Part shown: one piece after another, positions 3 to 31,511 of the stretch | Layout: each line of letters begins with the position of its first letter | Position numbering within the stretch: the first letter of the stretch is position 1 | IMG/VR virus record: IMGVR_UViG_3300034082_000574 | Location: 1 to 31,511 of that record | Length of the DNA: 31,511 nt | Reading direction: 5' to 3' (one strand) | From: a virus | Program-made: the position numbers and the translations under genes | The notes under the pieces: model-generated | The model's database searches: none | Told to the model about the DNA's origin: nothing | Seen by the model: only the letters and a program-made list of their open reading frames with translations

Positions 3-683
3 AAATCAGAGGCTGCCGGAGTTACTCCACAGGAAAAATTTGATGGAGCATCGGATGCTACAAAAACTGTCACGGGCGCAGGTCTACATAAACCCGCAGG
101 TGATAAATCTTTAAGAAATCAACCCGACCCCGGTAGTACTGTAGGCAATCTATCAAAAGAACAAATGACAGCATTACTAGCACAAATTGGTAACAGTGAA
201 AGTGGCGGAAATTACACTAGCATTAATCCTTTTGGTTATATAGGAAAATATCAATTTGGCGCAGAAGCCCTACAACGTATGGGTTATATTAAATCAGGAT
301 TAGTAACCAGCTATAAACAGCTAGGAGCAGAAAAGCACAAGGCTCTACTAAACAATCCTAACAGCTGGGTCGCTAATAAATGTGCTAGCCAAGACGAATT
401 CCTTAACAATCCAGCACTACAAGAAAAAATAATGGAACAATTTACAGCTCAGAACTATTCTGACATGATTAGCAACGGTGCTATTACCAAAGATATGACC
501 CCAGAAGATGTTGGTGGTATGTTGATGACCGGACACATGTTGGGCGCAAGCGGAGCAAATACTTGGCGCAAAACAGGTAGTGGGCAGGACGGCAATGGTA
601 CAACCGGTAGCTTGTATTTCAAAACAGGCAAATATGCTGTATCAGTGCTGGCACCTAAAATGCCAGAGATCAACGCTGGATAA
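3..683 (+). CDS. Baseplate hub / tail lysozyme, C-terminal part (left end cut by window)
   Basis: The frame is open from the first complete codon at position 3 to the TAA at 681-683, so this is the 3' end of a larger gene and the ATG at 165 is internal. The visible ~226 residues begin with a Gly/Pro/Asp-rich linker (about 50 residues). A lysozyme-like domain follows, with the block GNSESGGNY and then GYIGKYQFG. The Glu at nt 198-200 sits where the catalytic acid of goose-lysozyme/SLT-type folds lies. Later blocks (FLNNPALQEK, MLMTGHMLGASGANTW) match tail-lysozyme domains I know from T4-like marine phages. The likely role is local cleavage of peptidoglycan during tail penetration, as part of a gp5-like hub. 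The position directly before gp25 and gp6 supports this. The hub part itself lies outside the window, so the gp5 assignment is inference. Confidence 0.8.
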   Translation, partial: KSEAAGVTPQEKFDGASDATKTVTGAGLHKPAGDKSLRNQPDPGSTVGNLSKEQMTALLAQIGNSESGGNYTSINPFGYIGKYQFGAEALQRMGYIKSGLVTSYKQLGAEKHKALLNNPNSWVANKCASQDEFLNNPALQEKIMEQFTAQNYSDMISNGAITKDMTPEDVGGMLMTGHMLGASGANTWRKTGSGQDGNGTTGSLYFKTGKYAVSVLAPKMPEINAG

Positions 684-686
684 ATA
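679..686 (+). promoter_or_regulatory. Candidate T4-type late promoter before gp25
   Basis: The octamer GATAAATA matches the T4-like late consensus (TATAAATA in T4; NATAAATA in marine relatives). It contains the TAA stop codon of the lysozyme gene. The gp25 ATG is only 5 nt downstream, so a start 5-7 nt after the octamer would give a nearly leaderless gp25 mRNA. It could be a chance match in AT-rich DNA, but three other gene starts here carry the same octamer upstream. Confidence 0.45.
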
Positions 687-1092: not shown

Positions 1093-1100
1093 GATAAATA
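1093..1100 (+). promoter_or_regulatory. Candidate T4-type late promoter before gp6
   Basis: GATAAATA lies in the 51-bp gap between gp25 and gp6, 20 nt before the gp6 ATG. It is followed by CATTATAACAGGAAATAAGT, which supplies an AGGAA ribosome site before ATG 1121. The bases after the octamer (CATTATA) recur after the octamer-like site at 4493-4500, suggesting an extended element. Confidence 0.7.
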
Positions 1101-18402: not shown

Positions 18403-18404
18403 TA

Positions 18405-19670
18405 ATGACAATCAAGATTAGCGAGTTAGGTAATCTAACCGTATTTTATGGTAACACTGTAGTTCCGGTAGTAGCGGATATATTTGGTACCCCAACAACA
18501 TTAAAAGCCAATGGCGCTGTGATGAAAACATATATCACCAGTGACGTTGTTGCCAATATATCGTCGTTGACCGCAACAGTTAATGTGTTGTCAGCCAACG
18601 CGGCCGCACAGTCCGGGGCGATTGCTAGTCTAGATGCTAATGCCGCTGTACAAGCAGGTGCGATAGTAACAGCCAACACAGCTATGAAAGGTTATGTTGA
18701 CGCAGTTACTACTGCGTGGACTGCTAACGCTGGAGCGCAAGCAGGTGACATTGCTACATTATATGCTAATGCTGGTGCGCAGTCAGGTACTATTGCTAGT
18801 GCGACTACAGCTATAACTACTGCTAACACAGCAATGAAAGGTTATGTAGATGCCGCTAACACAGCAATGAAAGGTTATGTTGATGGGCAAGTATCGAGTT
18901 TGGTTGACGGAGCACCAGGTACATTAGATACATTAAATGAAATTGCTAGTGCCTTAGGCGACGATGCTAATTTATCAGTAACATTAACTAGTTACATTGG
19001 TAACGTTAATGCTAACATTGGCACAGCTAATACTGCTATGAAGGGTTATGTTGATGGGCAAATAACAACATTAACATCAAATGCCGCAGTACAAGCAGGT
19101 GCTATTGCTAGCGCAACCACAGCGATCACCACAGCTAATACAGCAATGAAGGGTTATGTTGATGGACAAGTGTCTACACTAACATCAAATGCCGCTGTAC
19201 AAGCAGGTTTAATTAACGATGTAACTGTGGCATTTAATAACTATAGTCCGAATGCTGCCGTAGCGAGTTTTGTTACAGTGACCCCTTTACAGCCGAATCA
19301 AGGTGGTACAGGACTAGCAAGTTCAGGCATACTGGGCAACGTACTAACATCAGACGGAGCCGGCTGGGTAAGTAATTCTTTAGCAAATTTATTAGTATTT
19401 TCAAACTCGTTAGGAACGTCGGGATATCAAAAATTACCAGGTGGATTGATAGTACAATGGGGTAATGTTGCTACACCAACGTCGTCAACTAATATTACAT
19501 TTTCAACGGCATTTCCAACAGCGGCATTTGTGTTGATAGCAACAAGAGGAGCGCCGGGCGACACTGGTGGGGTTGATGTAGGACCAGCAGTATCTAGCTT
19601 AACAACAAGTGGTGCTGTCTTATCAACTGCTTCGGGCGATTGGCATTATTATGTAGTACTAGGTAATTAA
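18405..19670 (+). CDS. Tail fibre protein with coiled repeats and gp53-like C-terminal tip
   Basis: The 421-aa protein has three parts. Residues 1-45 (TIKISELGNLTVFYGNTVVP) match the attachment segment of many marine phage fibres. Residues ~93-270 hold five AMKGYVD units alternating with Ala/Asn-rich helical stretches such as TSNAAVQAGAI, plus the common fibre block GTLDTLNEIASALGDD; this looks like a trimeric shaft. After a GGTGLASSG hinge, residues ~336-421 start with GYQKLPGGLIVQWG, the hallmark of the gp53-like fibre C-terminal domain that binds the host receptor. The GAGGA at 18394-18398, inside the end of the giant gene, sets the start 6 nt later; the genes are 2 bp apart. The exact host ligand cannot be read. 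Confidence 0.87.
   Translation: MTIKISELGNLTVFYGNTVVPVVADIFGTPTTLKANGAVMKTYITSDVVANISSLTATVNVLSANAAAQSGAIASLDANAAVQAGAIVTANTAMKGYVDAVTTAWTANAGAQAGDIATLYANAGAQSGTIASATTAITTANTAMKGYVDAANTAMKGYVDGQVSSLVDGAPGTLDTLNEIASALGDDANLSVTLTSYIGNVNANIGTANTAMKGYVDGQITTLTSNAAVQAGAIASATTAITTANTAMKGYVDGQVSTLTSNAAVQAGLINDVTVAFNNYSPNAAVASFVTVTPLQPNQGGTGLASSGILGNVLTSDGAGWVSNSLANLLVFSNSLGTSGYQKLPGGLIVQWGNVATPTSSTNITFSTAFPTAAFVLIATRGAPGDTGGVDVGPAVSSLTTSGAVLSTASGDWHYYVVLGN
18681..19212 (+). repeat. Internal repeats of the fibre shaft (AMKGYVD units)
   Basis: Five AMKGYVD-encoding units occur, at about 18681, 18831, 18864, 19035 and 19143. Two units are near-perfect 33-bp neighbours: a 26-bp identical stretch starts at 18822 and again at 18855. 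The last two are 108 bp (36 codons) apart and also repeat the TLTSNAAVQAG segment. The spacing suggests growth and shrinkage by recombination between units, which would alter shaft length. Confidence 0.85.
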
Positions 19671-19686
19671 TAGGTAAGAAAAACCA

Positions 19687-20373
19687 ATGGCCGAAAACGA
19701 AATAAATAGTAATATGAATAAAAATACACAAGAGAATTCTATGGATCAACAGAAAAAACAACCTGACGAACGTGGTGGCGTACACATTCAAGGTCACATC
19801 AAGATTTTTGACCCAGAAACTAAAGAAGTATTTGTTGATAAACGCAATGCTATTCACTATGAGAATATGAGTGAAGCTATTGCCTTAAGTTTATCTAATA
19901 AAGGTACTAATTTTATTTCGGAAATGCACTTTGGCAACGGCGGTACTACTGTTGACCCAACTGGCGTTATCACATATCTGCCAACTAACACTAACGTACA
20001 GAATGCTGACTTATACAGCCCACAATACTATAAAATTGTAGACGATACTAACGCGGCAAACATAGATCCACTAAGAAATAAAATTGTGGTAACACATACT
20101 CCTGGTGTGGTATATACAGACATCGTAGTAAACTGTTTACTAGACTACGGTGAGCCACAAGGGCAAGCTGTGTTTGATAACAGCCAAGATTTAAATGGAC
20201 AATTTGTATTCGACGAATTGGGCCTTAAAGGATTTAGCGTTAACGGCGCAGGCTCTGGCCAACTGCTAACACACGTAATTTTCAGTCCAGTACAAAAATC
20301 ATTAAACAGACTGATACAAATTGATTACACAGTGCGTATACAGACACTGACTAACTTGAGCACAACTGTATAA
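19687..20373 (+). CDS. Virion structural protein (HIKIFDP family)
   Basis: This 228-aa protein has a polar, Gln/Asn/Lys-rich first 30 residues that look disordered. A conserved block follows, HIKIFDPETKEVFVDKRNA, then IHYENMSEAIALSLSN (about residues 37-70) and a beta-rich body with MHFGNGGTTVDPTG. I recognise this block from structural proteins of marine T4-like phages, but the exact place in the virion is not established from sequence. AGGTAAG lies just before the ATG at 19687. ATGs at 19714-19716 and 19741 are possible later starts but would discard the best ribosome site. It sits between two fibre genes, so a fibre-attachment or baseplate-edge role is plausible. Confidence 0.72.
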   Translation: MAENEINSNMNKNTQENSMDQQKKQPDERGGVHIQGHIKIFDPETKEVFVDKRNAIHYENMSEAIALSLSNKGTNFISEMHFGNGGTTVDPTGVITYLPTNTNVQNADLYSPQYYKIVDDTNAANIDPLRNKIVVTHTPGVVYTDIVVNCLLDYGEPQGQAVFDNSQDLNGQFVFDELGLKGFSVNGAGSGQLLTHVIFSPVQKSLNRLIQIDYTVRIQTLTNLSTTV

Positions 20374-20386
20374 TTAGGAAAAGACA

Positions 20387-21769
20387 ATGGCATATACAAT
20401 AGTAAAAACAAATGGGGTATCGTTGGGGACCATCGCAGATGGTACTATAGATAACAAGTCTAAGACTAGTTTAGTTCTTATTGGACGTAATTACAGTAAC
20501 TACGGTCAGCTAGTAGCAAATAACTTCGTAGCCTTATTAGAAAATTTTGCCAATTCGTCAGAACCGCCTAATCCAATTGCTGGACAATTATACTTTAACA
20601 CTGCTGACCAACGTATGCGTGTGTATACTGGCACAAGTTTTAAAATTATCAGTAGCTGTACAGCACAGGCATCATCTCCTACTACAACGGTAGCAGGTGA
20701 CCTTTGGTGGGACAGCACAGAAGAACAACTATACATCTACAACGGCACTGACCCATATACAAGTTTAGGTTGGATCCTAGTAGGCCCTCCTTACAAAAAA
20801 TCTAAAGGCAAAAGCGGTGCTATTTGGGAACAAATCAGTGACGGCACTACTGACTATGATGTTGTTAGTGTTTATCTAAACGGTAGACGAACTAGCGTAA
20901 CTTCGCTATCAACTGCGTTTACACCAAGCCCAAGTATTCCTGGGTTTAGTTTAATTAATCTAGGTCTAACATCAAATTCTAGCGTAGCCAACGGTATACA
21001 CTATATCACAGCAAACAACGCAAATTACCTAGGTAATGTCTATGCTGAGAACTATCTAAGAACAGATATTAATAACACTGCTACAGGCAATCTACAAATT
21101 GTTAACAACAGTGGTATTACTGTTGGTGGTAATTTAGATTTAGCAATTACCACAGCAACTAGTGGTGTAGTGAGTATCACTAACAGAATTAACAACGGTG
21201 ACACAACATTCTACGCTAATGTTAGCGGAACATTGCGCTCAACATTGTCAATCGATGGTGCTACAGGATTGATCACTGTTTACGACAGTCCTACAACAAA
21301 CTACGGTATTGCTACTAAGAAATACGTAGATGATAGCTTTATTGATGCTGAGTTAACTGGTGTAAGTACAGCAGTAACAATGCCATCCAATACAGCAAAT
21401 ACAGCAATTGCCACAACAGAATTTGTTGTTAATAATTCTGGGTTCTTAACTAACAAAATTTATCAAGGCAACAGCTACGTTGAAATACTTGACTCTGGGT
21501 CAGGCGCATTAACTGTGGTAGTTGATGGTGCTACTGTAGCAACTGCTAGCGGCAGTGGATTTAACCTACAAAACGGTGCTACTGCTATTACTCAAACACA
21601 AACTTACTCTTCAGCAGGTAATGCAGCAGTGGCTACTACCCAATACGTGAGATCAGCTGGACAATGGTGGGGCGGAAGTGCTAAATTTGTTAGTACTAGT
21701 GCTCCTGACGCTGGGGTCAATGATATCGGCAGCAACAACGGTGATTTCTGGTTCCAATACCAGGGCTAA
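20387..21769 (+). CDS. Fibre-like virion structural protein, paralogue A
   Basis: The 460-aa product shares its first ~150 residues with the next gene: YTI..T.GV.L.TIADGT, LIG.NY..YG, LLENF, GQLYFNT and GDLWWDS (residues 104-110). This common part probably docks the protein to the virion. The middle is beta-rich with NYGIATKKYVDDSF. The C-terminal half has repeated AIATTEFV and AVATTQYV phrases typical of fibre shafts, and the protein ends in GDFWFQYQG. AGGAAAAG ends 5 nt before the ATG, and the preceding gene is 13 bp away. Presence in the virion is inferred from domain style and position among structural genes. Confidence 0.75.
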   Translation: MAYTIVKTNGVSLGTIADGTIDNKSKTSLVLIGRNYSNYGQLVANNFVALLENFANSSEPPNPIAGQLYFNTADQRMRVYTGTSFKIISSCTAQASSPTTTVAGDLWWDSTEEQLYIYNGTDPYTSLGWILVGPPYKKSKGKSGAIWEQISDGTTDYDVVSVYLNGRRTSVTSLSTAFTPSPSIPGFSLINLGLTSNSSVANGIHYITANNANYLGNVYAENYLRTDINNTATGNLQIVNNSGITVGGNLDLAITTATSGVVSITNRINNGDTTFYANVSGTLRSTLSIDGATGLITVYDSPTTNYGIATKKYVDDSFIDAELTGVSTAVTMPSNTANTAIATTEFVVNNSGFLTNKIYQGNSYVEILDSGSGALTVVVDGATVATASGSGFNLQNGATAITQTQTYSSAGNAAVATTQYVRSAGQWWGGSAKFVSTSAPDAGVNDIGSNNGDFWFQYQG

Positions 21770-21776
21770 TAGATAA

Positions 21777-21784
21777 GATAAATA
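21777..21784 (+). promoter_or_regulatory. Candidate T4-type late promoter before fibre-like paralogue B
   Basis: GATAAATA lies in the 41-bp gap between the two paralogues, 26 nt before ATG 21811, followed by AACATATAATTTAATAGG. The spacing to the start codon resembles that of the sites before gp6 and the giant gene. A TAGGTTAGAAAT ribosome region separates it from the start. Confidence 0.65.
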
Positions 21785-21810
21785 AACATATAATTTAATA
21801 GGTTAGAAAT

Positions 21811-23322
21811 ATGTCATATACAATAACTACAACGGCTGGCGTAACGTTAGCTACAATCGCAGACGGTACTGTAAATAGTACTAATACTAGTTTAACACTT
21901 ATAGGTAAGAACTATGCCGGTTACGGTATTTTCTTAAATGAAAACTATGTTAAACTTTTAGAAAACTTTTATAATACAACTGCTCCAACTGCTCCGCTAC
22001 CAGGCCAATTATGGTATGATAGCTCAAACAGCTTACTAAAGGTATACGACGGAAGTCTTTGGAAACCAATTTCAAGTTCAGCAAGTGGTAGCACACAACC
22101 AGCAAGTCCGATTACAGGTGACTTGTGGTGGGACAGTGCTAACGCACAACTTAAAGTATGGAGTGGCGCTGCTTGGATTACAGTAGGCCCATCATACACT
22201 ACAACATCAGGTACAAGTGGTGCGGTAGTTGAAACTATTCCTGACAGCACAGGTGCTCCAAAAGTTGCTGTTAAATTCTACATCAGCAATACAGTTATTG
22301 GTATATTAAGCAAAGAAGCTACATACACACCACAATCAAGTATCGCAGGTTTTGCTACAATTAAACCAGGCTTTAACTTAATTAACTCTAGTACATTAAG
22401 CGGCTCACAATTTACAGGTGACGCAAGTAACGCACTAACACTTCAAGGTGTTGCGGCAAACCAATTCTTACGCAGTGATCAAAACACCAGCACAAACTAT
22501 CAATTAACCATTGGTGGTGGTGTGGTTGTTGGTAGTGATTTACAAATTAACACTACAAGCGGAACAGAAGTACAATTAAACAACGTAACCACTGGTAAAG
22601 ATTTAAACTTATATGTTACTAAATCAGTTGGCGGTAGCACTAAAGCTATTGGTATTACAGGTAACACAGCCGCAGTTAGTCTAGCTGGCGCATTGAGTGT
22701 TACTGGAACAACAACATTAACTGGTGCTGCTTCACTAAGTTCAACACTGTCAGTTACAGGACAAAGTACATTTACTGGTAAACTAGTACCTAGCGGCGGT
22801 GGTGGCGGTACTGATATTGGTGCTACAGCATCAAGATTTGCCAACGTATTTGCCACAGTTGGGTCATTTACAGGTAATGTATCGGCAGGTACGTTCATTG
22901 GTAACGTAGTTGGTACATCACAAACAGCATTGTACGCTGACTTGGCAGAACGATTTGAAGCTGACGTTCCTATGGTACCAGGTACTGTAGTTGAACTAGG
23001 TGGTATGAAAGAAATTACATCAGTAGTTCAAGACTTGAGTGAAGCTGTGTTTGGTGTTATAAGTACATTGCCGGGCTTCTTATTAAATGGCGGCGCAGGA
23101 TCTAATACTACACATCCAGCAGTGGCAGTAAACGGTCGCGTACCAGTTCGTGTAATTGGTAAAGTTAACAAAGGTGATCGACTAGTATCAGCAGGTAATG
23201 GTCTAGCTAGAGCCGCTGACAGATCAGAACTTACAGCCTTTAACGTGCTCGGTCGTGCGTTAGCAGATAAACACACTACTGACGAAGGCCTAGTAGAAGC
23301 AATCGTTAAATTGAATAGTTAA
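21811..23322 (+). CDS. Fibre-like virion structural protein, paralogue B, with conserved C-terminal domain
   Basis: This 503-aa protein shares the ~150-residue N-terminal module of its upstream neighbour (IADGT, LIGKNYAGYG, LLENF, GDLWWDS at residues 103-109). After that the two diverge. The middle is Thr/Ser/Gly-rich, with TGTTTLTGAASLSSTLSVTG-type beta repeats and then the block DIGATASRFANVFA. The C-terminal ~130 residues (from YADLAERFEADVPMVPGTVV at 375) continue with VFGVISTLPGFLLN, NGRVPVRVIGKVNKGDRLVS and FNVLGRALADK. I know this domain from structural proteins of marine T4-like phages. It recalls self-cleaving or chaperone-like fibre ends such as Peptidase_G2, a resemblance I rate weak. 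It has its own candidate late promoter and ends 12 bp before the next gene. Confidence 0.78.
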   Translation: MSYTITTTAGVTLATIADGTVNSTNTSLTLIGKNYAGYGIFLNENYVKLLENFYNTTAPTAPLPGQLWYDSSNSLLKVYDGSLWKPISSSASGSTQPASPITGDLWWDSANAQLKVWSGAAWITVGPSYTTTSGTSGAVVETIPDSTGAPKVAVKFYISNTVIGILSKEATYTPQSSIAGFATIKPGFNLINSSTLSGSQFTGDASNALTLQGVAANQFLRSDQNTSTNYQLTIGGGVVVGSDLQINTTSGTEVQLNNVTTGKDLNLYVTKSVGGSTKAIGITGNTAAVSLAGALSVTGTTTLTGAASLSSTLSVTGQSTFTGKLVPSGGGGGTDIGATASRFANVFATVGSFTGNVSAGTFIGNVVGTSQTALYADLAERFEADVPMVPGTVVELGGMKEITSVVQDLSEAVFGVISTLPGFLLNGGAGSNTTHPAVAVNGRVPVRVIGKVNKGDRLVSAGNGLARAADRSELTAFNVLGRALADKHTTDEGLVEAIVKLNS

Positions 23323-23334
23323 GGAAAGTAAAGA

Positions 23335-24291
23335 ATGGCATACGCACAAGGTGATTTGATCCTTAAAGATCATTATAATACGTTTTCAACAGGAACAGCG
23401 TCAGGAACAGCAGACCACAACGTAGCAAACATTAACACTGTTTGGGGTGTTGGTAATGGTAATAAAGGTTACGGTCAATCAACTGTACTAACACCAGTAA
23501 CAACTGGTGCTGTGGTAACAGCCACACAATGGTCAACTTTAATTGCTAGATTGAACACTATTTTAACACACCAAGCAGGTGCTGGTTCTGGCGTTACTAG
23601 TCCGGTATCCGGTGACTTAGTTGCTTATCTAAGCACACTAAGTGGTAAAGTAACAGACGCCTATAACAATCGTTTGAATTTTAATAGTACACGTGGTTCA
23701 GCAAGTACAACCAACTACGATGCTGTTTGGACATCAGCCACTCCGACAACATTCCAGCAGGTTCGTACAGTGACATTTGTTGACGCAGATGCGGCACGTT
23801 ATTTCTTTAACGCAGGCGGCAGAATTGGTATTGGTCTAAGTATTCCAGCTGGCGGAACAGACAACACAAAAGAAACCTCATGGGGCACGCTATTATCAAG
23901 TGTTGGTACATTAAGCCTTGATGCCCTAACTAGTGTTAGAAGCGGCACTGGAAATACTCTTACTACTGACGGGTCGGCTATCGGGTTTTGGGATTTAACT
24001 GGCACAGACCAAACATTAATTAAAATAACAAACTTAGTTTCACCTTATAACACTAACTATGTTGAGGTATTATGTAAAGTTACCGGAACAGCAGGCGCCA
24101 ATGGCGGGCTAGGTACAACCATTACATTTACCATTAACTACAATGATGCGGCAGCTGACTCAACTGGCACCGGACAATTCAATGATGGTATTTCGATGAC
24201 TATGCGTGCGGCTGTAACAGTTACTCCACCAGAAACAGTCAACTTAACTAGTACATGGGGTACACCAACTCCGGCAGCTACAGTAAACTAG
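23335..24291 (+). CDS. Virion structural protein (YFFNAGG family)
   Basis: A 318-aa protein beginning MAYAQGDLILKDHYNTF. The central block FVDADAARYFFNAGGRI (residues ~147-164) is one I recognise in many structural proteins of T4-like marine phages. The C-terminal half is a beta-rich domain ending in VNLTSTWGTPTPAATVN. AAGGAAAG lies 6 nt before the ATG and the gene follows paralogue B by 12 bp, so it is probably co-transcribed with it from 21777. It is the last late gene before the terminator. A tail or fibre role fits the context, but the precise position in the virion is unknown. Confidence 0.75.
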   Translation: MAYAQGDLILKDHYNTFSTGTASGTADHNVANINTVWGVGNGNKGYGQSTVLTPVTTGAVVTATQWSTLIARLNTILTHQAGAGSGVTSPVSGDLVAYLSTLSGKVTDAYNNRLNFNSTRGSASTTNYDAVWTSATPTTFQQVRTVTFVDADAARYFFNAGGRIGIGLSIPAGGTDNTKETSWGTLLSSVGTLSLDALTSVRSGTGNTLTTDGSAIGFWDLTGTDQTLIKITNLVSPYNTNYVEVLCKVTGTAGANGGLGTTITFTINYNDAAADSTGTGQFNDGISMTMRAAVTVTPPETVNLTSTWGTPTPAATVN

Positions 24292-24320
24292 TTGACAACA
24301 TAACTAATTTAGTATATAAT
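24292..24320 (+). promoter_or_regulatory. Perfect sigma70 promoter opening the modification operon
   Basis: TTGACA (24292-24297) and TATAAT (24315-24320) are both exact consensus hexamers with the optimal 17-bp spacer. It begins directly after the stop codon of the last structural gene. It should be read by unmodified host RNA polymerase, so the downstream operon is likely expressed early or through infection, unlike the late structural genes. The expected start point is near 24327. Confidence 0.88.
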
Positions 24321-24347
24321 AAAGGCACCTTTGGGTGCTTTTATTTT
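24321..24347 (+). terminator. Rho-independent terminator after the structural module
   Basis: The arms AAAGGCACC (24321-24329) and GGTGCTTTT (24334-24342) pair over 9 bp with one G-T pair around a TTTG loop. A T-rich tail (TTTTATTTT) follows. It would stop late transcripts coming from the structural genes. It touches the -10 box of the sigma70 promoter, whose own transcripts would start inside the left arm. Confidence 0.85.
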
Positions 24348-24378
24348 GACTTTACCTTTTACAGATAATTATATATAT

Positions 24379-24693
24379 ATGTCCACTCCAGAACAATTAG
24401 TTAATCAAATACGTACTGCTACTGATTATCAAACAAACAAAAGATTTTTAAAAGAGAAGATCTTAACCGATCTCCATCTTGCCTACAATGGCGGACTTTT
24501 TAAACTTGACACCGGCCTACTTGCGTTTGTTGCCACTTGGCCTAATCTAGAATTATTTTTAGAAGATGTTTACGGTAATCCTATTAAAATTCAACGCGAA
24601 GATTTTTTAACACAGGCTCGTGAACAGTACCACGCAGTGATGAACTCATGGCACATCCAACATGACGAACTTAAACGCATCAGAAAAATCTAA
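24379..24693 (+). CDS. Small conserved phage protein of unknown function
   Basis: A 104-aa protein starting MSTPEQLVNQIRTATDYQTN. The block LHLAYNGGLFKLDTGLLAFV and the following VYGNPIKIQREDFL look like a small alpha-helical family I recall from T4-like marine phages, with no known role. It is acidic to neutral, with no signal peptide, membrane segment or cysteine pattern. The frame extends upstream to a TTG at 24331, but that would lie in the terminator hairpin, so ATG 24379 is chosen even though its ribosome site is weak. It is the first gene after the sigma70 promoter and its 3' end overlaps the next gene by 32 nt. Confidence 0.75.
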   Translation: MSTPEQLVNQIRTATDYQTNKRFLKEKILTDLHLAYNGGLFKLDTGLLAFVATWPNLELFLEDVYGNPIKIQREDFLTQAREQYHAVMNSWHIQHDELKRIRKI

Positions 24694-25444
24694 AGGCGTT
24701 GTAATTTTTGCCACAAATACAGCAACAATAGACTACCTAGCTATTGCTCGTCATGCTGAACAGCTAATTAACCACTATCTCAAACTGCCTGTAACAATAA
24801 TTTCAAACGACACAACAACTACAACAAACCAAAGATACAATATTGATACTGGACAGTTTGACCTATGGAACAACAGTCTTAGATGTCAAGCATACGAGCT
24901 AAGTCCCTATGATCAGACTATACTATTAGACAGCGACTACTTTGTCTTAGATGATAGTCTATTAAAATTGTTAGATTCAGTACAAGACTACAAAATTATA
25001 AGAAATAACATCTACATTGACGGTGCTCCGTCTGACACTTTAGGCAAATACAGTATACCTAGTCTATGGGCCACAATTATAGCTTTTGATCGCACACCTA
25101 AGAGTAAGATGCTATTTGATCTGGTAGCACGGGTTGAACGCAATTACTCATACTATCGCAGGTTATACAATATACAAGCGACTAATTTTAGAAATGACTT
25201 TGCCTTTACCATAGCCGATAATATTCTAAACGGATATTGCCAAGATCCAACAAATTACATACCGTGGCCTATGCTAAGTGTGAACACACCTATAGACAGT
25301 TTAGAACTACAGGGTAGTAAACTGTACATCAAAACCAAAGATCAAGCCTATGTTACACCAAAGCAAAGCATACACATTATGGGCAAGGCTTGGCTAACCA
25401 GTGATGCCTGCGCTGACTTTGTTAAGGAAGCTGTTAATGCGTGA
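24662..25444 (+). CDS. Glycosyltransferase-like protein (GT-A type, DSD motif)
   Basis: The 260-aa product opens with a beta-strand (GVVIFATNT) and a helix in the style of nucleotide-sugar-binding GT-A folds. The segment LSPYDQTILLDSDYFVL contains D90-S-D92, the expected metal/sugar-nucleotide DxD motif. Later motifs include SLWATIIAFDRTPKS and NDFAFTIADNILNG, which would lie in the acceptor half. No membrane segment is seen, so a cytoplasmic enzyme is likely. It would transfer a sugar to an unknown acceptor. It overlaps the preceding gene by 32 nt and the next by 8 nt. The neighbour at 25437 has the same arrangement (TPFKETIKLESD), so the two are probably diverged duplicates. Donor and acceptor are unknown. 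Confidence 0.68.
   Translation: MTNLNASEKSKGVVIFATNTATIDYLAIARHAEQLINHYLKLPVTIISNDTTTTTNQRYNIDTGQFDLWNNSLRCQAYELSPYDQTILLDSDYFVLDDSLLKLLDSVQDYKIIRNNIYIDGAPSDTLGKYSIPSLWATIIAFDRTPKSKMLFDLVARVERNYSYYRRLYNIQATNFRNDFAFTIADNILNGYCQDPTNYIPWPMLSVNTPIDSLELQGSKLYIKTKDQAYVTPKQSIHIMGKAWLTSDACADFVKEAVNA
25424..25430 (+). promoter_or_regulatory. Ribosome binding site fixing the start at 25437
   Basis: AAGGAAG lies 6 nt before ATG 25437, inside the end of the upstream gene. It decides for this ATG over the in-frame GTG/ATG pair at 25401-25406, which has no such site and would lengthen the overlap to 44 nt. Confidence 0.8.
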
Positions 25445-26243
25445 GTTTAAAGAACAATTTGGCTTTTTAACTATTGCGCAGAATACAGATGTGGACTATC
25501 TACACCTAGCATACCTACAGGCGCAGAACATCAAAGCCACACAAAAGTTAAACAGTTATGCTGTGATCTTAGACGAAGCTACAGCAGAACATTTAACTCG
25601 AGGACATAGACAGGTATTTGACCATATCATAATACTGCCCAACGATTGTGCTAGTAACGAAACATGGAAACAATCAAATGAATGGCAGGTGTTTAATCTA
25701 ACACCGTTTAAAGAAACAATTAAGTTAGAAAGCGACTTACTGTTCACTCGAGATATTACCCATTGGTTAGATGCCCTGCGATTAAAAGAAATTTGCTTTA
25801 GTTATCATTGCTTGGATTATCAAGAGCAGGCAATAACAGAAACACCCTATAGACAGATATTTAAATTAAATGATCTACCTGACATATACACAGGTATGTA
25901 TTATTTTAGATATAGTCGCACTGCGGCAGAGTTCTTTAGGCTAGCAAAAAACGTCTACAGCAATTGGACTACAGTGAAAGAAAATATTGTACAATCTAGC
26001 GACGCACCTAGCACTGATTTGGCCATGTCTATTACTGCTAAACTATTTGGTCAAGAGCAGTGCTATATTCCTACCCTAGACTTTTTTAACTTTGTTCATA
26101 TGAAGTCGGGCATACAAAAGTGGAGTGATCAACAGCCGTGGACTGATTATGTTAATGTTGAACATGACGGGCAAATGATACGCATTAACAATATAAATCA
26201 ATATATGCCAGTACACTACTATGAAAAGGATTTCTATGATTGA
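25437..26243 (+). CDS. Second glycosyltransferase-like protein (ESD variant of the DxD motif)
   Basis: A 268-aa protein beginning MREFKEQFGFLTIAQNTDVDY, where an opening strand and helix resemble those of the neighbour at 24662. The position of the DxD motif reads TPFKETIKLESDLLFTRDI, with E98-S-D100 replacing the first Asp. The middle block YTGMYYFRYSRTAAEFFRLA and SSDAPSTDLAMSI look like the acceptor-side half of a GT-A fold; a C-terminal NINQYMPVHYYEKDF closes it. It may be an active transferase using a Glu ligand, or one that has lost metal dependence. It overlaps the gene before by 8 nt (ATGCGTGA) and the gene after by 8 nt (ATGATTGA), which suggests coupled translation. Confidence 0.65.
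   Translation: MREFKEQFGFLTIAQNTDVDYLHLAYLQAQNIKATQKLNSYAVILDEATAEHLTRGHRQVFDHIIILPNDCASNETWKQSNEWQVFNLTPFKETIKLESDLLFTRDITHWLDALRLKEICFSYHCLDYQEQAITETPYRQIFKLNDLPDIYTGMYYFRYSRTAAEFFRLAKNVYSNWTTVKENIVQSSDAPSTDLAMSITAKLFGQEQCYIPTLDFFNFVHMKSGIQKWSDQQPWTDYVNVEHDGQMIRINNINQYMPVHYYEKDFYD
26226..26230 (+). promoter_or_regulatory. Ribosome binding site fixing the start at 26236
   Basis: AAGGA lies 5 nt before ATG 26236, within the end of the preceding gene. The earlier in-frame ATG at 26221 has no comparable site and would place this one inside the coding sequence. Confidence 0.75.
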
Positions 26244-26595
26244 GGGCGAAGCTGATTTTTTATCCGCGTTTTCTGACATTGTACAACCAGTGGTTCCTGA
26301 AGACTATCGAGCATACTATGACGAAGATGGCTGGGTAACTGGATTTGCTGGTAGTGGATTTCCTACAGGTGATAATTGGATAGCCATTGACAGAGACCTA
26401 TATACAACACACGATTGGAATTGGTTGCGGGTAATCAACGGCAGTATAGTTAAACAACAACCAGTGTATACATACCATTTTTCTTTGACAAAGAGCGACA
26501 AAGGTGTTAAAATAGTTAAGAATCATGCTGGAATCGTCATCGAAGACAGCGAAGAATATACGGATATTGAGTACTATGACAAACGAAATAATTGA
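26236..26595 (+). CDS. Small acidic protein of unknown function
   Basis: A 119-aa protein rich in Asp, Glu and aromatic residues. EDYRAYYDEDGWVTGF and GDNWIAIDRDLYTTH suggest a small beta-rich fold; RVINGSIVKQQPVYTYHF follows. I recall similar small proteins near glycosyltransferases in marine phages but know no function. There is no signal peptide, membrane segment or cysteine. It sits between two GT-like genes, overlapping the previous by 8 nt and the next by 20 nt, so it is probably made together with them. It may be a partner of one of these enzymes, but that is only a guess from position. Confidence 0.65.
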   Translation: MIEGEADFLSAFSDIVQPVVPEDYRAYYDEDGWVTGFAGSGFPTGDNWIAIDRDLYTTHDWNWLRVINGSIVKQQPVYTYHFSLTKSDKGVKIVKNHAGIVIEDSEEYTDIEYYDKRNN

Positions 26596-27475
26596 CGTAG
26601 CAGATTTAGATGTAATATATCTGACCTATGACGAACCAAACAAAGAAGCAAACTGGATTAAAATACAGAATATGGTTCCTTGGGCTGTTAGGGTAGATGG
26701 GGTCAAAGGTACTGATGCTGCCCACAAAGCAGCCGCAGATGCTAGCAGTACTGATCGCTTTGTGCTTATCGACGGCGACAATCTCCCTGATCCTGCGTTC
26801 TTTAACCTTCAACTTAAACTTGATGACACTAATAGAGACTGTGTATTTCGCTGGCGTGCCCGTAACTACATTAATGGTCTACAGTATGGCAATGGCGGGC
26901 TAAGTTGCTGGACAAAAGACTTTGTCTATGCGATGAAAACGCACGAAGCATCAGATGGCTCAGCTGAGAATGATGTAGAGTTTTGTTTCTATCCTAACTA
27001 TTGGGCTATGAGCGACTGCTATAGTACTACATATCCTAACCAAACTCCATTCCAAGCATGGCGAGCTGGCTTCCGTGAGGGCGTTAAAATGTGCCTAGAC
27101 CGCGGAACTAAACCTAGCTTAGAAGACTTTGAAAAGCGTGTACACTCACGTAACTATGATAACCTATGTATTTGGCAAACTGTAGGAGCAGATGTAAAGA
27201 ATGGCTTCTGGGCTATATATGGCGCACGCTTAGGTACATATCTAACTATGCTATGCGATTGGGAATATCGTTGGGTACAAGACTTTGATACACTTGAAGA
27301 TCTCTGGAACGAATACAAAGACCGTGATACAGAACACTGTACGCAAATAGGTGATATACTGCGCACACGATTGGCTTTACCTATTGTGGACATGGATTCG
27401 GAAGAAAGTAAGTTCTTCAAACATCATTACAAGAGTAATTTTAAAAATCAGGGACCAATGGTCAGAGAAAACTAA
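26576..27475 (+). CDS. Glycosyltransferase-like protein (DGD motif, YDEPN family)
   Basis: The 299-aa protein starts MTNEIIDVADLDVIYLTYDE followed by PNKEANW, and then has HKAAADASSTDRFVLIDGDN. D66-G-D68 is a clear DxD-type motif after a hydrophobic strand, as in GT-A transferases. I recognise the YDEPN...HGVKG...AHK...DGD pattern from a family widespread in T4-like marine phages; here HGVKG reads DGVKG. A second half with GNGGLSCWTKDFVYAM, FCFYPNYWAMSDCYSTTYPN and FQAWRAGFREGVKMCLDRG is long and Trp/Tyr/Cys-rich, typical of the acceptor part. The ATG at 26576 is chosen because the family begins near here; the upstream extension to 26525 would overlap the preceding gene by more than 70 nt. 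It ends 3 nt before the next start. Confidence 0.7.
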   Translation: MTNEIIDVADLDVIYLTYDEPNKEANWIKIQNMVPWAVRVDGVKGTDAAHKAAADASSTDRFVLIDGDNLPDPAFFNLQLKLDDTNRDCVFRWRARNYINGLQYGNGGLSCWTKDFVYAMKTHEASDGSAENDVEFCFYPNYWAMSDCYSTTYPNQTPFQAWRAGFREGVKMCLDRGTKPSLEDFEKRVHSRNYDNLCIWQTVGADVKNGFWAIYGARLGTYLTMLCDWEYRWVQDFDTLEDLWNEYKDRDTEHCTQIGDILRTRLALPIVDMDSEESKFFKHHYKSNFKNQGPMVREN

Positions 27476-27478
27476 TTT

Positions 27479-28453
27479 ATGATAACAATGAGCAACAAAG
27501 ATAGGCGCATATATAATATAGAACATCTAATTATTGACGTTGTGGCCGAACTTCAGAATACAGGCAAGGTTGAAATCTTTCTTAACTATGAAGGACCATG
27601 TGCTCGATCACTGGGCCTGTATGATCTGTTAGATCATATTTGTCGATCGTTTAATGTTAACAAAAACTTAATAACAGTACGTACCCATAACTATTTAGAA
27701 AAACACAGTGAATACAATGTTGTAATTGAACCAAATCAATGGATAACAGGTGCTAGACAACATGCGCCAATCTCTATACCTAGTAAGCAGACCCAGTTAA
27801 AAACAGTCGGGTTCTTTAGTGGTCGCACTAGTTGGTATAGAATGATATTGGGCGCTTGGTTATTTAATAACTATCGAGATCAAACGTTGATGAGTTTTAA
27901 TTATAGACACGTAGATGATGATAAGTTTTTATGCGAGTTAGATGAATTAAACTTCTTTAAGGGCGATAACTTAGAAGAAGCGGTATGTTTTTTAAAACAT
28001 ACCCCTATAATCTTAGATGATATGTACTACTATAAACAAATACACACAAACGACGTTTGGGTCAATGTTAACGGTAACAGTTTGTATAATTACTATGATC
28101 AAATATTCTTAGAACTAGTAACAGAAACTTATGTCACTGGAGTAACATTTTGCCCAACTGAAAAAACTATTCGAACGATACTTGCTAAAACTCCATTTAT
28201 AGTATTTGGAGCAGTAGGATATTTAGAGAATCTTCGCAGGATTGGATTTAAAACATTTAGTCAATGGTGGGACGAAAGTTACGATACACTCGAGGGTGCT
28301 GATAGGATAGATGCTATAAAACGCTTAATAAGTGAAATAATGTCTTGGCCTCAAGACATAATGTGTGCTACAATAGTAGATATGCGTGAGATATTAGACT
28401 ACAACCGCACCCACTTTATGACTATGAATCTCAATGAGGTCCCACAATGGTAA
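27479..28453 (+). CDS. Glycosyltransferase-like protein of a marine-phage family
   Basis: This 324-aa protein has a hydrophobic and aromatic centre (TSWYRMILGAWLFNNYRDQT). The C-terminal block that I recognise follows: ETYVTGVTFCPTEKTIRTIL (FCPTEKT at 224-230), then TPFIVFGAVGYLENLRRIGF and WWDESYD (263-269). The second-half pattern (FCPTEK, PFIVFG, GF.T...WWDE) resembles GT-B-like or fucosyltransferase-like enzymes of phages. I cannot assign a donor or acceptor. The N-terminal part contains YEGPCARSLGLYDLLDHICR, perhaps part of the other half of the fold. ATG 27479 is 3 nt after the previous stop; a second ATG at 27488 is possible. It overlaps the SGNH gene by 7 nt. Confidence 0.6.
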   Translation: MITMSNKDRRIYNIEHLIIDVVAELQNTGKVEIFLNYEGPCARSLGLYDLLDHICRSFNVNKNLITVRTHNYLEKHSEYNVVIEPNQWITGARQHAPISIPSKQTQLKTVGFFSGRTSWYRMILGAWLFNNYRDQTLMSFNYRHVDDDKFLCELDELNFFKGDNLEEAVCFLKHTPIILDDMYYYKQIHTNDVWVNVNGNSLYNYYDQIFLELVTETYVTGVTFCPTEKTIRTILAKTPFIVFGAVGYLENLRRIGFKTFSQWWDESYDTLEGADRIDAIKRLISEIMSWPQDIMCATIVDMREILDYNRTHFMTMNLNEVPQW

Positions 28454-29247
28454 ATGTAGTACCAAATCAAGATTTCATTGGTATAGGGTCTGACCTTTTG
28501 GTTGTAACTGCAGGTGATAGTACAACCTATGGAACTGATTTAGGTACCGATGAATTCAGACTTAATAATATCTATGGAAGACACATTGCGAATGCCCTGT
28601 CAGCTGATTTTTTAAATCTTAGCGAGTCAGGAGCAAGCAACGCTAGTATTGCTAAACAAATAGAACTTTTTGCTAGTCAAATTAATAATTTAAATTACAA
28701 ACACATATATGTAATATGTATGATGACTGAACCTGGTAGAAAATTTGACTCTATAGAAGATGAGCACATAGATTATTTTACATGGTTGAAAGATAATATC
28801 AAAGAGTCGGCTGATTATTATAAGTTATTAACATTTTTGAACACTGACAGTATTAATCGTATCTATGCTGCATTAGAATCACACAATGTGACCTTACGCA
28901 TTGGAACTCATATAGCAGACTTATATGGGGTAGACGGAGTTAAATCGGGTGATCTATTAGAAAAGACTATGTTTAAAGTAGTAGCAGAGAAAAAAAACTT
29001 TAACTATATTGAGGGGTGTTATGTAGTATTCCCAGAAACAACCACAGCAAGATTGTCCAATGTATTAAAACTACAGCCGGCATTGAAACGTGTGGATTTT
29101 CTTAAATGGTATATGGAATTAATTGAAATAGCAGTTGTCCGTCGAAGACAACTTACAGAGTGCGGTGGATTCAACAACTATCATACCAATGAAATAGGTC
29201 ATAAATTATGGTCCGATTATATATTAGGGACAATTAAAGATGTCTAA
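28447..29247 (+). CDS. SGNH/GDSL hydrolase-like protein
   Basis: The 266-aa protein shows the block order of SGNH hydrolases. Block I is VVTAGDSTTYG with nucleophile S25; block II is LSESGASNASI with G62; a block-III-like segment VICMMTEPGR follows at 89-98. The C-terminal NYHTNEIGHKLWSDYI (244-259) carries the His of block V (H246). The residue three positions before it, normally the catalytic Asp, is Asn (N243). Such enzymes remove acetyl or other acyl groups from sugars or peptidoglycan, or add them when paired with acyltransferases. No signal peptide is visible. The start has a GAGG site 7-8 nt upstream and overlaps the gene before by 7 nt and the next by 8 nt. Confidence 0.72.
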   Translation: MVNVVPNQDFIGIGSDLLVVTAGDSTTYGTDLGTDEFRLNNIYGRHIANALSADFLNLSESGASNASIAKQIELFASQINNLNYKHIYVICMMTEPGRKFDSIEDEHIDYFTWLKDNIKESADYYKLLTFLNTDSINRIYAALESHNVTLRIGTHIADLYGVDGVKSGDLLEKTMFKVVAEKKNFNYIEGCYVVFPETTTARLSNVLKLQPALKRVDFLKWYMELIEIAVVRRRQLTECGGFNNYHTNEIGHKLWSDYILGTIKDV

Positions 29248-30649
29248 GAGTAAATTTTTAAACGCCGCAGAAGAAATGAAAGATAAGTTAGGGCCTAGTT
29301 TATGTTTGGCCAAGTGGCAACAGGTAAGTCTACACTTGCCAACTGGTCTTAACAATAGCTGTTATCATCCTCCACTACATGAGATTGATGCGCAGATAGT
29401 TAAATTTCATCCTACTGCCCTACACAACACACAGCACAAAAAAGAACAGCGTAAGAAAATGCTAGAAGGTGAAAAGCCTAAAGAATGTAACTACTGCTGG
29501 CATATGGAAGATGCTGGACATCTAAGTGATCGTCACTATCGCAGTGGTGAGCCATGGGCGGCAGAACATTATGATACTATTGTAAATGGTCCATGGGATC
29601 AAGATGTTACTCCTAGCTATGTAGAAGTAAACTTTAGTCATGCTTGTAACCTAGCCTGTAGCTACTGTAGTCCACAGTTTAGTACAGAGTGGGGTAAAGA
29701 TATTGATCGTTGGGGTGCTTATCCTACTAAGGTTCCTCACAATGACCCTAATCACTTTAAAGGTCGTCGTAAGCCTATTCCTGTTAAAGATGATAATCCC
29801 TATGTAGATGCCTTTTGGGATTGGTGGCCTACCCTGTATCCTAAACTAAAACACTTCCGTATGACTGGTGGTGAGCCACTTATGGATAAGAACACGCATC
29901 GTGTGTTTGACTATATTCTTGCTACGCTACCTAACACTGATCTACACGTAGACGTTACTAGTAACTTCAGTGTCGACGAAGGCCTGTTTACCAAGTATTT
30001 GGCCAAGGTAAAAGAACTATGTACAGGTGAACGCATAGAACACTTTATGCAGTATGTTAGTCTTGATACAGGTATTGCTGAACACGCAGAATATATTCGT
30101 AGAGGATTGAACTTCCAACGTAACCAAGCATACGTACATCGTTACCTAACAGAAGTGCCATATCGTAACAGTCTAACCTACATTATCACAATGAATAATC
30201 TAAGCCTACTAGGCCTACAACGTCAACTTGAGCATATCTTAGAACTGCGTAGATTGTACAGCACTACCTATCAACGTGTTTGGTTTGACACTCCTGTACT
30301 GCGTACACCAACTTGGCAGAGTCTACAGATTCTTCCGCCAGCATACGTAGGTATCATGGAAGGCGTGGTTAAATGGATGAAACTTCATTTGATTAAAGAA
30401 GGCGAGAATCGCTTTGATGGATTTAAAGATTACGAAATCCAACGTATGGAACGTGATCTAGTATGGATGAAGAACGGTAAGAAGCTAACAGACAAATACA
30501 TCAACGAACAACGTGCAGACTTCTATCGTTTCTTTAGTGAATACGATAAACGTCGAGGAGCATATGAAACTGATGCGGGACACTTTACAGACATATTCCC
30601 GCAGATGAAAGAGTTTTGGCAGGAGTGTAAGTGGCATGCTGAACAATAA
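29240..30649 (+). CDS. Twitch-type radical SAM enzyme
   Basis: The 469-aa protein has the radical SAM cluster motif CNLACSYC (C136, C140, C143), which binds the 4Fe-4S cluster that cleaves S-adenosylmethionine. MTGGEPL at 208-214 is the GGEP motif that binds SAM. N-terminal to this is a region with C22 (SLCLAKW), C41 (SCYHP), and C83/C86 (ECNYCW), all shared with the partial enzyme at 30964. The KKEQRKKMLEGEKP block lies between. I match this to twitch-domain radical SAM proteins seen in phages. The C-terminal half has few cysteines (KELCTGE and QECKWH), so a classic C-terminal auxiliary cluster is not obvious. The reaction and substrate are unknown. It overlaps the SGNH gene by 8 nt. Confidence 0.85.
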   Translation: MSKSKFLNAAEEMKDKLGPSLCLAKWQQVSLHLPTGLNNSCYHPPLHEIDAQIVKFHPTALHNTQHKKEQRKKMLEGEKPKECNYCWHMEDAGHLSDRHYRSGEPWAAEHYDTIVNGPWDQDVTPSYVEVNFSHACNLACSYCSPQFSTEWGKDIDRWGAYPTKVPHNDPNHFKGRRKPIPVKDDNPYVDAFWDWWPTLYPKLKHFRMTGGEPLMDKNTHRVFDYILATLPNTDLHVDVTSNFSVDEGLFTKYLAKVKELCTGERIEHFMQYVSLDTGIAEHAEYIRRGLNFQRNQAYVHRYLTEVPYRNSLTYIITMNNLSLLGLQRQLEHILELRRLYSTTYQRVWFDTPVLRTPTWQSLQILPPAYVGIMEGVVKWMKLHLIKEGENRFDGFKDYEIQRMERDLVWMKNGKKLTDKYINEQRADFYRFFSEYDKRRGAYETDAGHFTDIFPQMKEFWQECKWHAEQ

Positions 30650-30971
30650 ATTAATATTATGTATAGGTAATAATACTAGACAAACGGATCAACTGGCTAG
30701 TGAAGTAGCTGCCAAATATCAAACTGTGAACTTAGGATTGCTGACTAGTACCACAGCAGAATTACAAGAACAGGGGGTGTATCATACTAGTCTAGGCGAT
30801 CTAGGCAGTGTAACACCATTGGTAAATTTAGCTGCTGAATTTGACCATGTACTATTTTTTAACCAATCAGCTGACAGCTATTCTGATGAACGTACTTATG
30901 ATCTAACTAAGTTTGCTATCGAACTTATTGAAAATCGATTAGAAATACCCGTAGAAATTATCAATGCCTAA
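30636..30971 (+). CDS. Small protein between two radical SAM genes, function unknown
   Basis: A 111-aa protein starting MLNNKLILCIGNNTRQTDQL. The opening hydrophobic strand followed by a Gly turn and helix suggests a small Rossmann-like fold. GVYHTSLGDLGSVTPLVNLA and EFDHVLFFNQSADSYSDE look like further strand-helix units; a helix-strand pair ends the protein. I recall proteins of this form beside twitch radical SAM genes in marine phages but know no function. It overlaps the radical SAM gene before by 14 nt and the one after by 8 nt (ATGCCTAA), a strong sign of co-production. It could be a carrier, chaperone or cofactor partner, which the sequence does not decide. Confidence 0.7.
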   Translation: MLNNKLILCIGNNTRQTDQLASEVAAKYQTVNLGLLTSTTAELQEQGVYHTSLGDLGSVTPLVNLAAEFDHVLFFNQSADSYSDERTYDLTKFAIELIENRLEIPVEIINA

Positions 30972-31511
30972 ACTAACTAACGAAACAGATCTACAGTATA
31001 AACGTCGTGTGATAGACATTAAGTCAGAATCATTCTGTGCGGCCAAATGGTACAATGCTACCATATGGTTAGGCAGTGGACAAACTACCAGTTGTCATCA
31101 TCCCTTGCCACATGCTATAGACAAGGAAATGATAGCCATCAATCCTAGCGCAATACACAATACTCCGCAGAAAAAAGAACAGCGTCGCATGATGCAACAA
31201 GGCGAACGACCTAGCGGTTGTGAATACTGCTGGAAGATAGAAGACATGGGCACCGAGGCAGTCAGTGACCGCGTGTATAAAACAGTAATATATGATGATA
31301 AGGATCTAGATGATGCGTATAAACTTGGATGGTATCAAGATGTCAACTTACAAACTTTGGAAATCGCATTCGACAGAACTTGCCAGCTTGCTTGTAGCTA
31401 CTGTAACCCTGCTTTCAGTACTTCCTGGGTTAGAGATATTAAACGCAATGGAGCCTATGAACATCTTGTATCTGACGGACGCAATCACTTTACTCACACT
31501 CACGATAGTAG
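30964..31511 (+). CDS. Second twitch-type radical SAM enzyme (right end cut by window)
   Basis: From ATG 30964 the frame stays open to the window edge (182 full codons). The product has C25 (SFCAAKW), C44 (SCHHP), C86/C89 (GCEYCW) and the radical SAM motif CQLACSYC (C140, C144, C147). The Cys spacing before the core, C-x18-C-x41-C-x2-C, equals that of the enzyme at 29240. KKEQRRMMQQGERP matches its KKEQRKKMLEGEKP. The stretch NPAFSTSWVRDIKRNGAYE corresponds to SPQFSTEWGKDIDRWGAYP. So it is a paralogue, probably a second member of the same pathway with a different substrate or step. The GGEP region and C-terminus lie outside the window. It overlaps the gene before by 8 nt. Confidence 0.85.
   Translation, partial: MPKLTNETDLQYKRRVIDIKSESFCAAKWYNATIWLGSGQTTSCHHPLPHAIDKEMIAINPSAIHNTPQKKEQRRMMQQGERPSGCEYCWKIEDMGTEAVSDRVYKTVIYDDKDLDDAYKLGWYQDVNLQTLEIAFDRTCQLACSYCNPAFSTSWVRDIKRNGAYEHLVSDGRNHFTHTHDS

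Follow-up and report, generated by a model that had tools for sequence, protein, structure and literature searches.

A candidate self-exempting insulator in a T4-like phage: a sigma70-type promoter with a predicted start inside a terminator-like hairpin

At the end of a block of virion genes in a T4-like phage, a 56 bp sequence (24292–24347) probably functions as a self-exempting insulator, which blocks read-through from upstream and spares the transcript that begins within it. The window, i.e. the whole stretch of DNA analysed, is a virus record of 31.5 kb that carries gp25-like and gp6-like genes for the baseplate wedge; we take these T4 names from the PHROG term ‘baseplate wedge subunit’. 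In the mechanism envisaged, transcripts of the virion genes would carry both arms of a 12-bp hairpin and terminate at its U tract. Polymerase recruited by the sigma70-type promoter would start at about A24327, inside the left arm, and its RNA, having the right arm only, would form no stem and continue into a 104-aa gene and the genes behind it. The purpose might be to decouple the downstream gene from the virion operon. The logic is best read as the one used by T4 gene e and I-TevI, except that termination replaces translational silencing.

If this is correct, about 55 bp of DNA would constitute a protein-free one-way gate, where upstream transcription is halted and the local transcript passes. 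The classical T4 trick known from gene e and I-TevI would be extended from translation to termination, and there would be an explanation for the insulation of neighbouring transcription units without spacers in dense phage genomes. Such a sequence would also be a compact part for synthetic biology. The features are listed in Table 1.

Table 1. Coordinates of the promoter, hairpin, late boxes and adjoining genes in the window
Feature	Position	Strand	Basis or remark
Putative late promoter GATAAATA	679..686	+	5 nt before gp25-like gene, upstream block
Putative late promoter GATAAATA	1093..1100	+	before baseplate wedge gene
Putative late promoter GATAAATA	21777..21784	+	gap before gene at 21811
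Upstream gene, 318 aa	23335..24291	+	ORF; last of virion-gene block
-35 hexamer TTGACA	24292..24297	+	sequence; conserved in relatives
-10 hexamer TATAAT, 17-bp spacer	24315..24320	+	sequence
Terminator-like hairpin, 12 bp, one G-U pair	24318..24345	+	folding; 24318–24329 pairs with 24334–24345
Predicted transcription start, A	24327	+	promoter geometry, 7 nt after -10 box; inside left arm
U tract of terminator, UUUUAUUUU	24339..24347	+	sequence
Late-promoter-like box GATAATTA	24364..24371	+	7 nt before downstream ATG; one base from GATAAATA
Downstream gene, 104 aa, without Shine-Dalgarno sequence	24379..24693	+	ORF

The promoter agrees with the sigma70 consensus at all 12 hexamer positions. 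It is the sole 12/12 site in the window, where dinucleotide shuffles predict 0.083, and an earlier note on this DNA had described it exactly so, as TTGACA-17 bp-TATAAT ending at 24320. Weaker promoter-like matches occur at chance level (53 versus 51.9 expected in 15000–31511). The earlier note held that its proposal would fall if the -35/-10 pair varied in close relatives; consensus hexamers at a spacing of 16–18 bp are kept there, with scores of 12/12 in L002, L196 and L213, 11/12 in L003 and 10/12 in L015, L020 and L042. Consensus TTGACA-TATAAT sites are several-fold commoner than a reversed control pattern in the relatives studied, and the site in the window is presumably an active promoter. 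The stop codon of the upstream gene (24289–24291) directly adjoins the -35 box. The putative start at A24327 is on a preferred C/A step, and the RNA predicted from it keeps just ACC of the left arm.

Intrinsic (Rho-independent) terminators consist of a stem with a GC-containing core, a small loop and a U tract. The window has the same components, a stable 12-bp stem-loop with the U tract directly after; it differs from ordinary terminators in that the left arm has a second role in a same-strand promoter, to which it supplies part of the -10 box and the initially transcribed region. The hairpin loop is UUUG (24330–24333), a G-U pair is formed by 24324 and 24339, and the left arm shares AAT with the 3′ end of the -10 box. 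The hairpin itself had been correctly recognized from the sequence, but not its extent: rather than 9 bp beginning at 24321, the stem has 12 bp beginning at 24318 and overlaps the -10 box. RNA of 24315–24350 folds at -15.1 kcal/mol (z = -5.5), which none of 200 shuffles equals, and the hairpin ranks first of 17 terminator-like sites in 15000–31511, where 9.7 are expected. These properties are consistent with termination at this site. A role on the minus strand, i.e. as a bidirectional terminator, was considered and rejected: the hairpin scores on that strand too, but no convincing minus-strand gene adjoins. A search of Rfam gave one sub-threshold match at chance level, on the opposite strand (E 0.72).

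The promoter's own RNA has a predicted folding energy of -2.0 kcal/mol when begun at 24327. Escape from termination needs a start within about 2 nt of this position, because RNA begun at 24325 would fold at -8.5 kcal/mol, with a 5-bp GC-rich stem remaining; such a start could attenuate the promoter's own RNA. In 12 fusions of this type, from this and unrelated phages, most of the stem is lost between start offsets +5 and +7.

Relatives were collected via the 104-aa gene, which gave 39 loci, then 80 with alignment (many on the same contigs) and four more; the de-duplicated set comprises 60 junctions, all from uncultured phages. A good sigma70-type promoter (at least 10/12) is present in 38 of them. 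In most junctions the flanks are shared, with PETTNL..WGT as the C-terminus upstream and the 104-aa gene downstream, yet the intervening gap, which is only 36–95 nt long, takes several forms. These were assigned by eye to classes A–G.

Class A, in which the -10 box is fused to the terminator arm, comprises the window, L002, L003, L015, L020, L042, L196 and L213, the last with a UUCG loop. A C/A step at +7 fits most class A relatives as well, and the class A arms among the fusions examined are cut at the same place, where two G/C bases before +7 carry most of the stability. A compensatory change from C-G to U-A distinguishes the stem of the window from that of L015. In class B, one arm occupies the promoter spacer, the loop contains the -10 box and the start, and the second arm, with a U-rich tail, lies past the start. 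The class B arms have a GGTGTA..CTACACC-like sequence over 13 members at constant spacing and contain a one-base bulge of shifting position. The class B helix is 97% paired, with two pairs changed on both sides; its score is reached by 15 of 500 shuffles, which is modest support. Class C has GGTAAG..CTTACC just 3′ of the -10 box. Class D has a dyad whose right arm extends to the ATG of a message predicted to be leaderless; in two members, L004 and L005, long and nearly perfect dyads (CATCTACACAGTA..TACTGTGTAGATG) cover the promoter, and there is no U tract. In class E a terminator precedes a GATAAATA box placed exactly 5 nt from the ATG, in class F a terminator precedes a sigma70-type -10 box, and in class G a dyad encloses GATAATTA or an AT-rich box resembling it.

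Relatives that have no U tract cannot have an intrinsic terminator at the hairpin. The hairpin of many relatives seems fitted to blocking translation rather than to termination; the right arm holds the Shine-Dalgarno sequence or the AUG in L036 (GGAGG), L004 and L029. The classes largely track the clades of the gene tree, which was built on few columns and leaves many forks unresolved. It seems, then, that the logic is retained while the arms change in sequence.

The proposition that read-through RNA forms the hairpin and the promoter's own RNA cannot is strongly supported by this comparison. Over the 38 junctions with good promoters, folding across the predicted start contributes extra energy with a mean z of -2.73, and 26 of the 38 are significant at p<0.05; about a third have no significant start-spanning hairpin. 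The promoter's own RNA is less structured than its shuffles (mean z +0.9). By comparison, the mean z is -0.3 at 22 further TTGACA-TATAAT consensus promoters in these phages, some of them perhaps intragenic (Mann-Whitney p = 4e-7). It should be pointed out that the junctions are mutually related and not independent, and that the counts overstate the number of events.

The best hairpin at the junctions is stronger on the sense than on the antisense strand (-15.5 versus -13.7, p = 3e-5), with 77 G-U pairs of 850 on the sense strand against 35 of 796 on the antisense, and 20 U-rich tails against seven. Shuffled sequences have no such strand bias, and therefore a function in RNA is favoured over a DNA operator; 50 of the 60 junctions fold better than all six of their own shuffles. 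An operator, where a repressor or activator would bind the dyad over the promoter and the RNA hairpin would be incidental, is thus an improbable explanation. It would account for the long dyads without U tract in the two class D members, and for the shared arm sequence and constant spacing of class B. However, the arms differ wholly between clades, without a conserved strand-symmetric motif. An operator does not predict the sense-strand excess in folding, G-U pairs and U-rich tails; the shifting bulge of class B and the standard terminator shape of the window hairpin also argue against it.

Perhaps an ordinary terminator and promoter overlap by chance or through compaction of the genome, and the start inside the stem is not selected. 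The short gaps fit this explanation, as do the junctions where terminator and promoter lie in series (L006, L053 and L078) or where a terminator is followed by a late box (L007, L008, L041 and others). It is nevertheless unlikely, although less so than an operator: a promoter inside the hairpin is the predominant arrangement among relatives, the own RNA is less structured than shuffles, and the design recurs with a probable translational outcome in the three relatives with ribosome-binding or start-codon sequences in the right arm. A third explanation is recycling, in which terminated polymerase would stay on the DNA and restart at the adjoining promoters, so that the virion operon feeds the downstream gene. 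Purified bacterial polymerase almost always remains on DNA after termination and often restarts (PMC6978322), and the window has zero distance between promoter and terminator, with a late-like box next, at 24364. But the restart described is mostly in the reverse direction (PMC6978322), and a sigma70-type promoter could be used late in infection only if sigma70 were retained or bound again. This is the least credible of the three explanations, and a self-exempting insulator is the reading that is followed here.

The pattern of a consensus promoter with a fused terminator is found in 26 viral contigs, compared with one when the 3′ arm is scrambled. Outside the family defined by the 104-aa gene, a dozen or so contigs have it before a gene-32-like gene for a single-stranded DNA-binding protein, and there are about seven further contexts among the fusion matches, e.g. 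L195 and L203. One match, L211, is not a real hairpin, and in L200, L202, L208 and L210 the own RNA could still fold. Phages may have evolved self-exempting insulators repeatedly, with a promoter in a hairpin and read-through that is either terminated or translationally silenced. One group would keep the logic at one gene boundary while the arms, the outcome (termination, Shine-Dalgarno masking or start-codon masking) and the kind of promoter (sigma70 or late) are exchanged; the version that terminates would have arisen independently in several other phage contexts. For this broader proposition the case for and the case against are about evenly balanced.

In the gene-32 group, a conserved fusion is situated ~200 nt before the gene-32-like gene in L198, L199, L201, L204–L207, L212, L215–L218, L220 and L222, all uncultured. 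That the fusion is general before gene-32-like genes was rejected, as it is present in the metagenomic group and absent in six cultured relatives. One of the cultured relatives, Pseudomonas phage Ettore, has a 12/12 promoter before its gene-32-like gene, yet without the fusion; in Ettore this gene follows a virion structural gene.

Promoters within inhibitory hairpins are well known from T4. Long early transcripts of gene e form an inhibitory structure, and local late transcripts are without its 5′ part (PMC3014915); likewise, for I-TevI and others, transcripts of the local promoter begin so far 3′ that they lack the 5′ arm (PMC2988022). In the leaders of gene e, soc, 49 and I-TevI, the late promoter is within a hairpin that sequesters the ribosome-binding site (PMC3014915, PMC2988022). 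The window resembles gene e and I-TevI in silico in that the hairpin forms only on RNA initiated upstream, with the local start inside or past the 5′ arm. It differs in that the T4 hairpins block translation, whereas that of the window ends 33 nt before the ATG and masks neither Shine-Dalgarno sequence nor AUG. The promoters differ as well: those of T4 are late promoters, and that of the window is TTGACA-17-TATAAT, with a separate GATAATTA box 3′ of the hairpin. L036, L004 and L029, with the Shine-Dalgarno sequence or AUG in the right arm, are closer to T4 in this respect.

The promoter is of the same type as sigma70-type phage early promoters, but it is situated inside a terminator hairpin and at the end of a virion-gene block. 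Terminators also serve as insulators in Tn916-type mobile elements, where they bar outside transcription from element genes; fusion to the protected promoter is not described in the passages cited (PMC11658703). In E. coli, terminator tR2 is, according to the passage cited, almost completely repressed several bp behind a gene and recovers with distance (PMC4824070). A similar effect of distance may add to the design of the window, where the hairpin lies 26 nt behind the stop codon, a distance taken up by the -35 box and spacer. No description of a terminating promoter-in-hairpin, or of promoter-terminator overlap, was found in the open-access papers searched, which is not proof of absence.

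The earlier note considered the sequence to be an insulator between late and early-type transcription. This has partial support. A late character of the upstream genes is suggested by T4-late-like GATAAATA boxes before virion genes; the early character of the downstream gene is less clear-cut, since this gene has a GATAATTA box of its own. In five long relatives, 22 of 33 occurrences of GATAAATA are at most 60 nt upstream of gene starts, and it is likely the late box of this phage group. Late transcription of the T4 type (gp55 with NATAAATA) would involve a late box before virion genes and a gp55-like sigma. The window has three such boxes before virion genes. Of 16 records of relatives, 13 have a gp55-like sigma stretch (E about 1e-6) that extends over ~70 residues and represents a core region only; at 31.5 kb, the record of the window is too short for a judgement on the sigma. 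Because of the late-like box at 24364, and because 17 of the 60 junctions have GATAAATA or GATAATTA at a distance of exactly 5 nt from the ATG, the downstream gene may also be transcribed late, perhaps from a restart past the terminator. The hairpin would therefore separate two transcription units, the second of which may be read both early and late.

In many relatives, the 104-aa gene lacks a Shine-Dalgarno sequence, and its ATG is preceded by GATAAATA or GATAATTA at exactly 5 nt or by a sigma70 -10 box at 5–7 nt. Judging from this spacing, the gene seems to be transcribed leaderless in these phages. Several other of their consensus promoters are also just a few nt before an ATG. In addition, one locus, L132 (G012:C1:46661-46689), has a terminator-like hairpin (AAAAGCCGA..TCGGCTTTT) whose loop contains TTGACA; this is another kind of overlap, upstream of a different and apparently near-leaderless gene.

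AlphaFold2 gives a compact helix-hairpin-helix-hairpin-helix model of the 104-aa protein (pLDDT 89.7). Its fold matches are weak, to prefoldin and DUF4376 proteins, and a prefoldin-like chaperone is possible but only a guess. Searches of Pfam and PHROG gave no match to this protein or to the upstream 318-aa protein. Cultured phages had no match to the window region in a nucleotide search, nor to three versions of the 104-aa protein in protein searches, and no relative was found in bacterial and archaeal genomes.

The genes before the 318-aa gene match tail and baseplate families. Between the baseplate and tail-fibre-like genes, one ORF of 4624 aa (4528–18402) takes up 44% of the window. A 469-aa protein (29240–30649) has a CNLACSYC motif and is radical-SAM-like by eye; it had no Pfam match at E 0.001, as was the case for all ten window proteins in that scan. 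The neighbouring virion genes at 20387–21769 and 21811–23322 have related N-termini (MAYTIVKTNGVSLGTIADGTI and MSYTITTTAGVTLATIADGTV), which suggests a tandem duplication. Finally, an 11/12 promoter match at 26485–26513 (TTGACA-17-TAAAAT, with TG ahead of the -10 box) is contained in one ORF and stops 11 nt 5′ of the ATG of the next (26525); it is a possible internal promoter.
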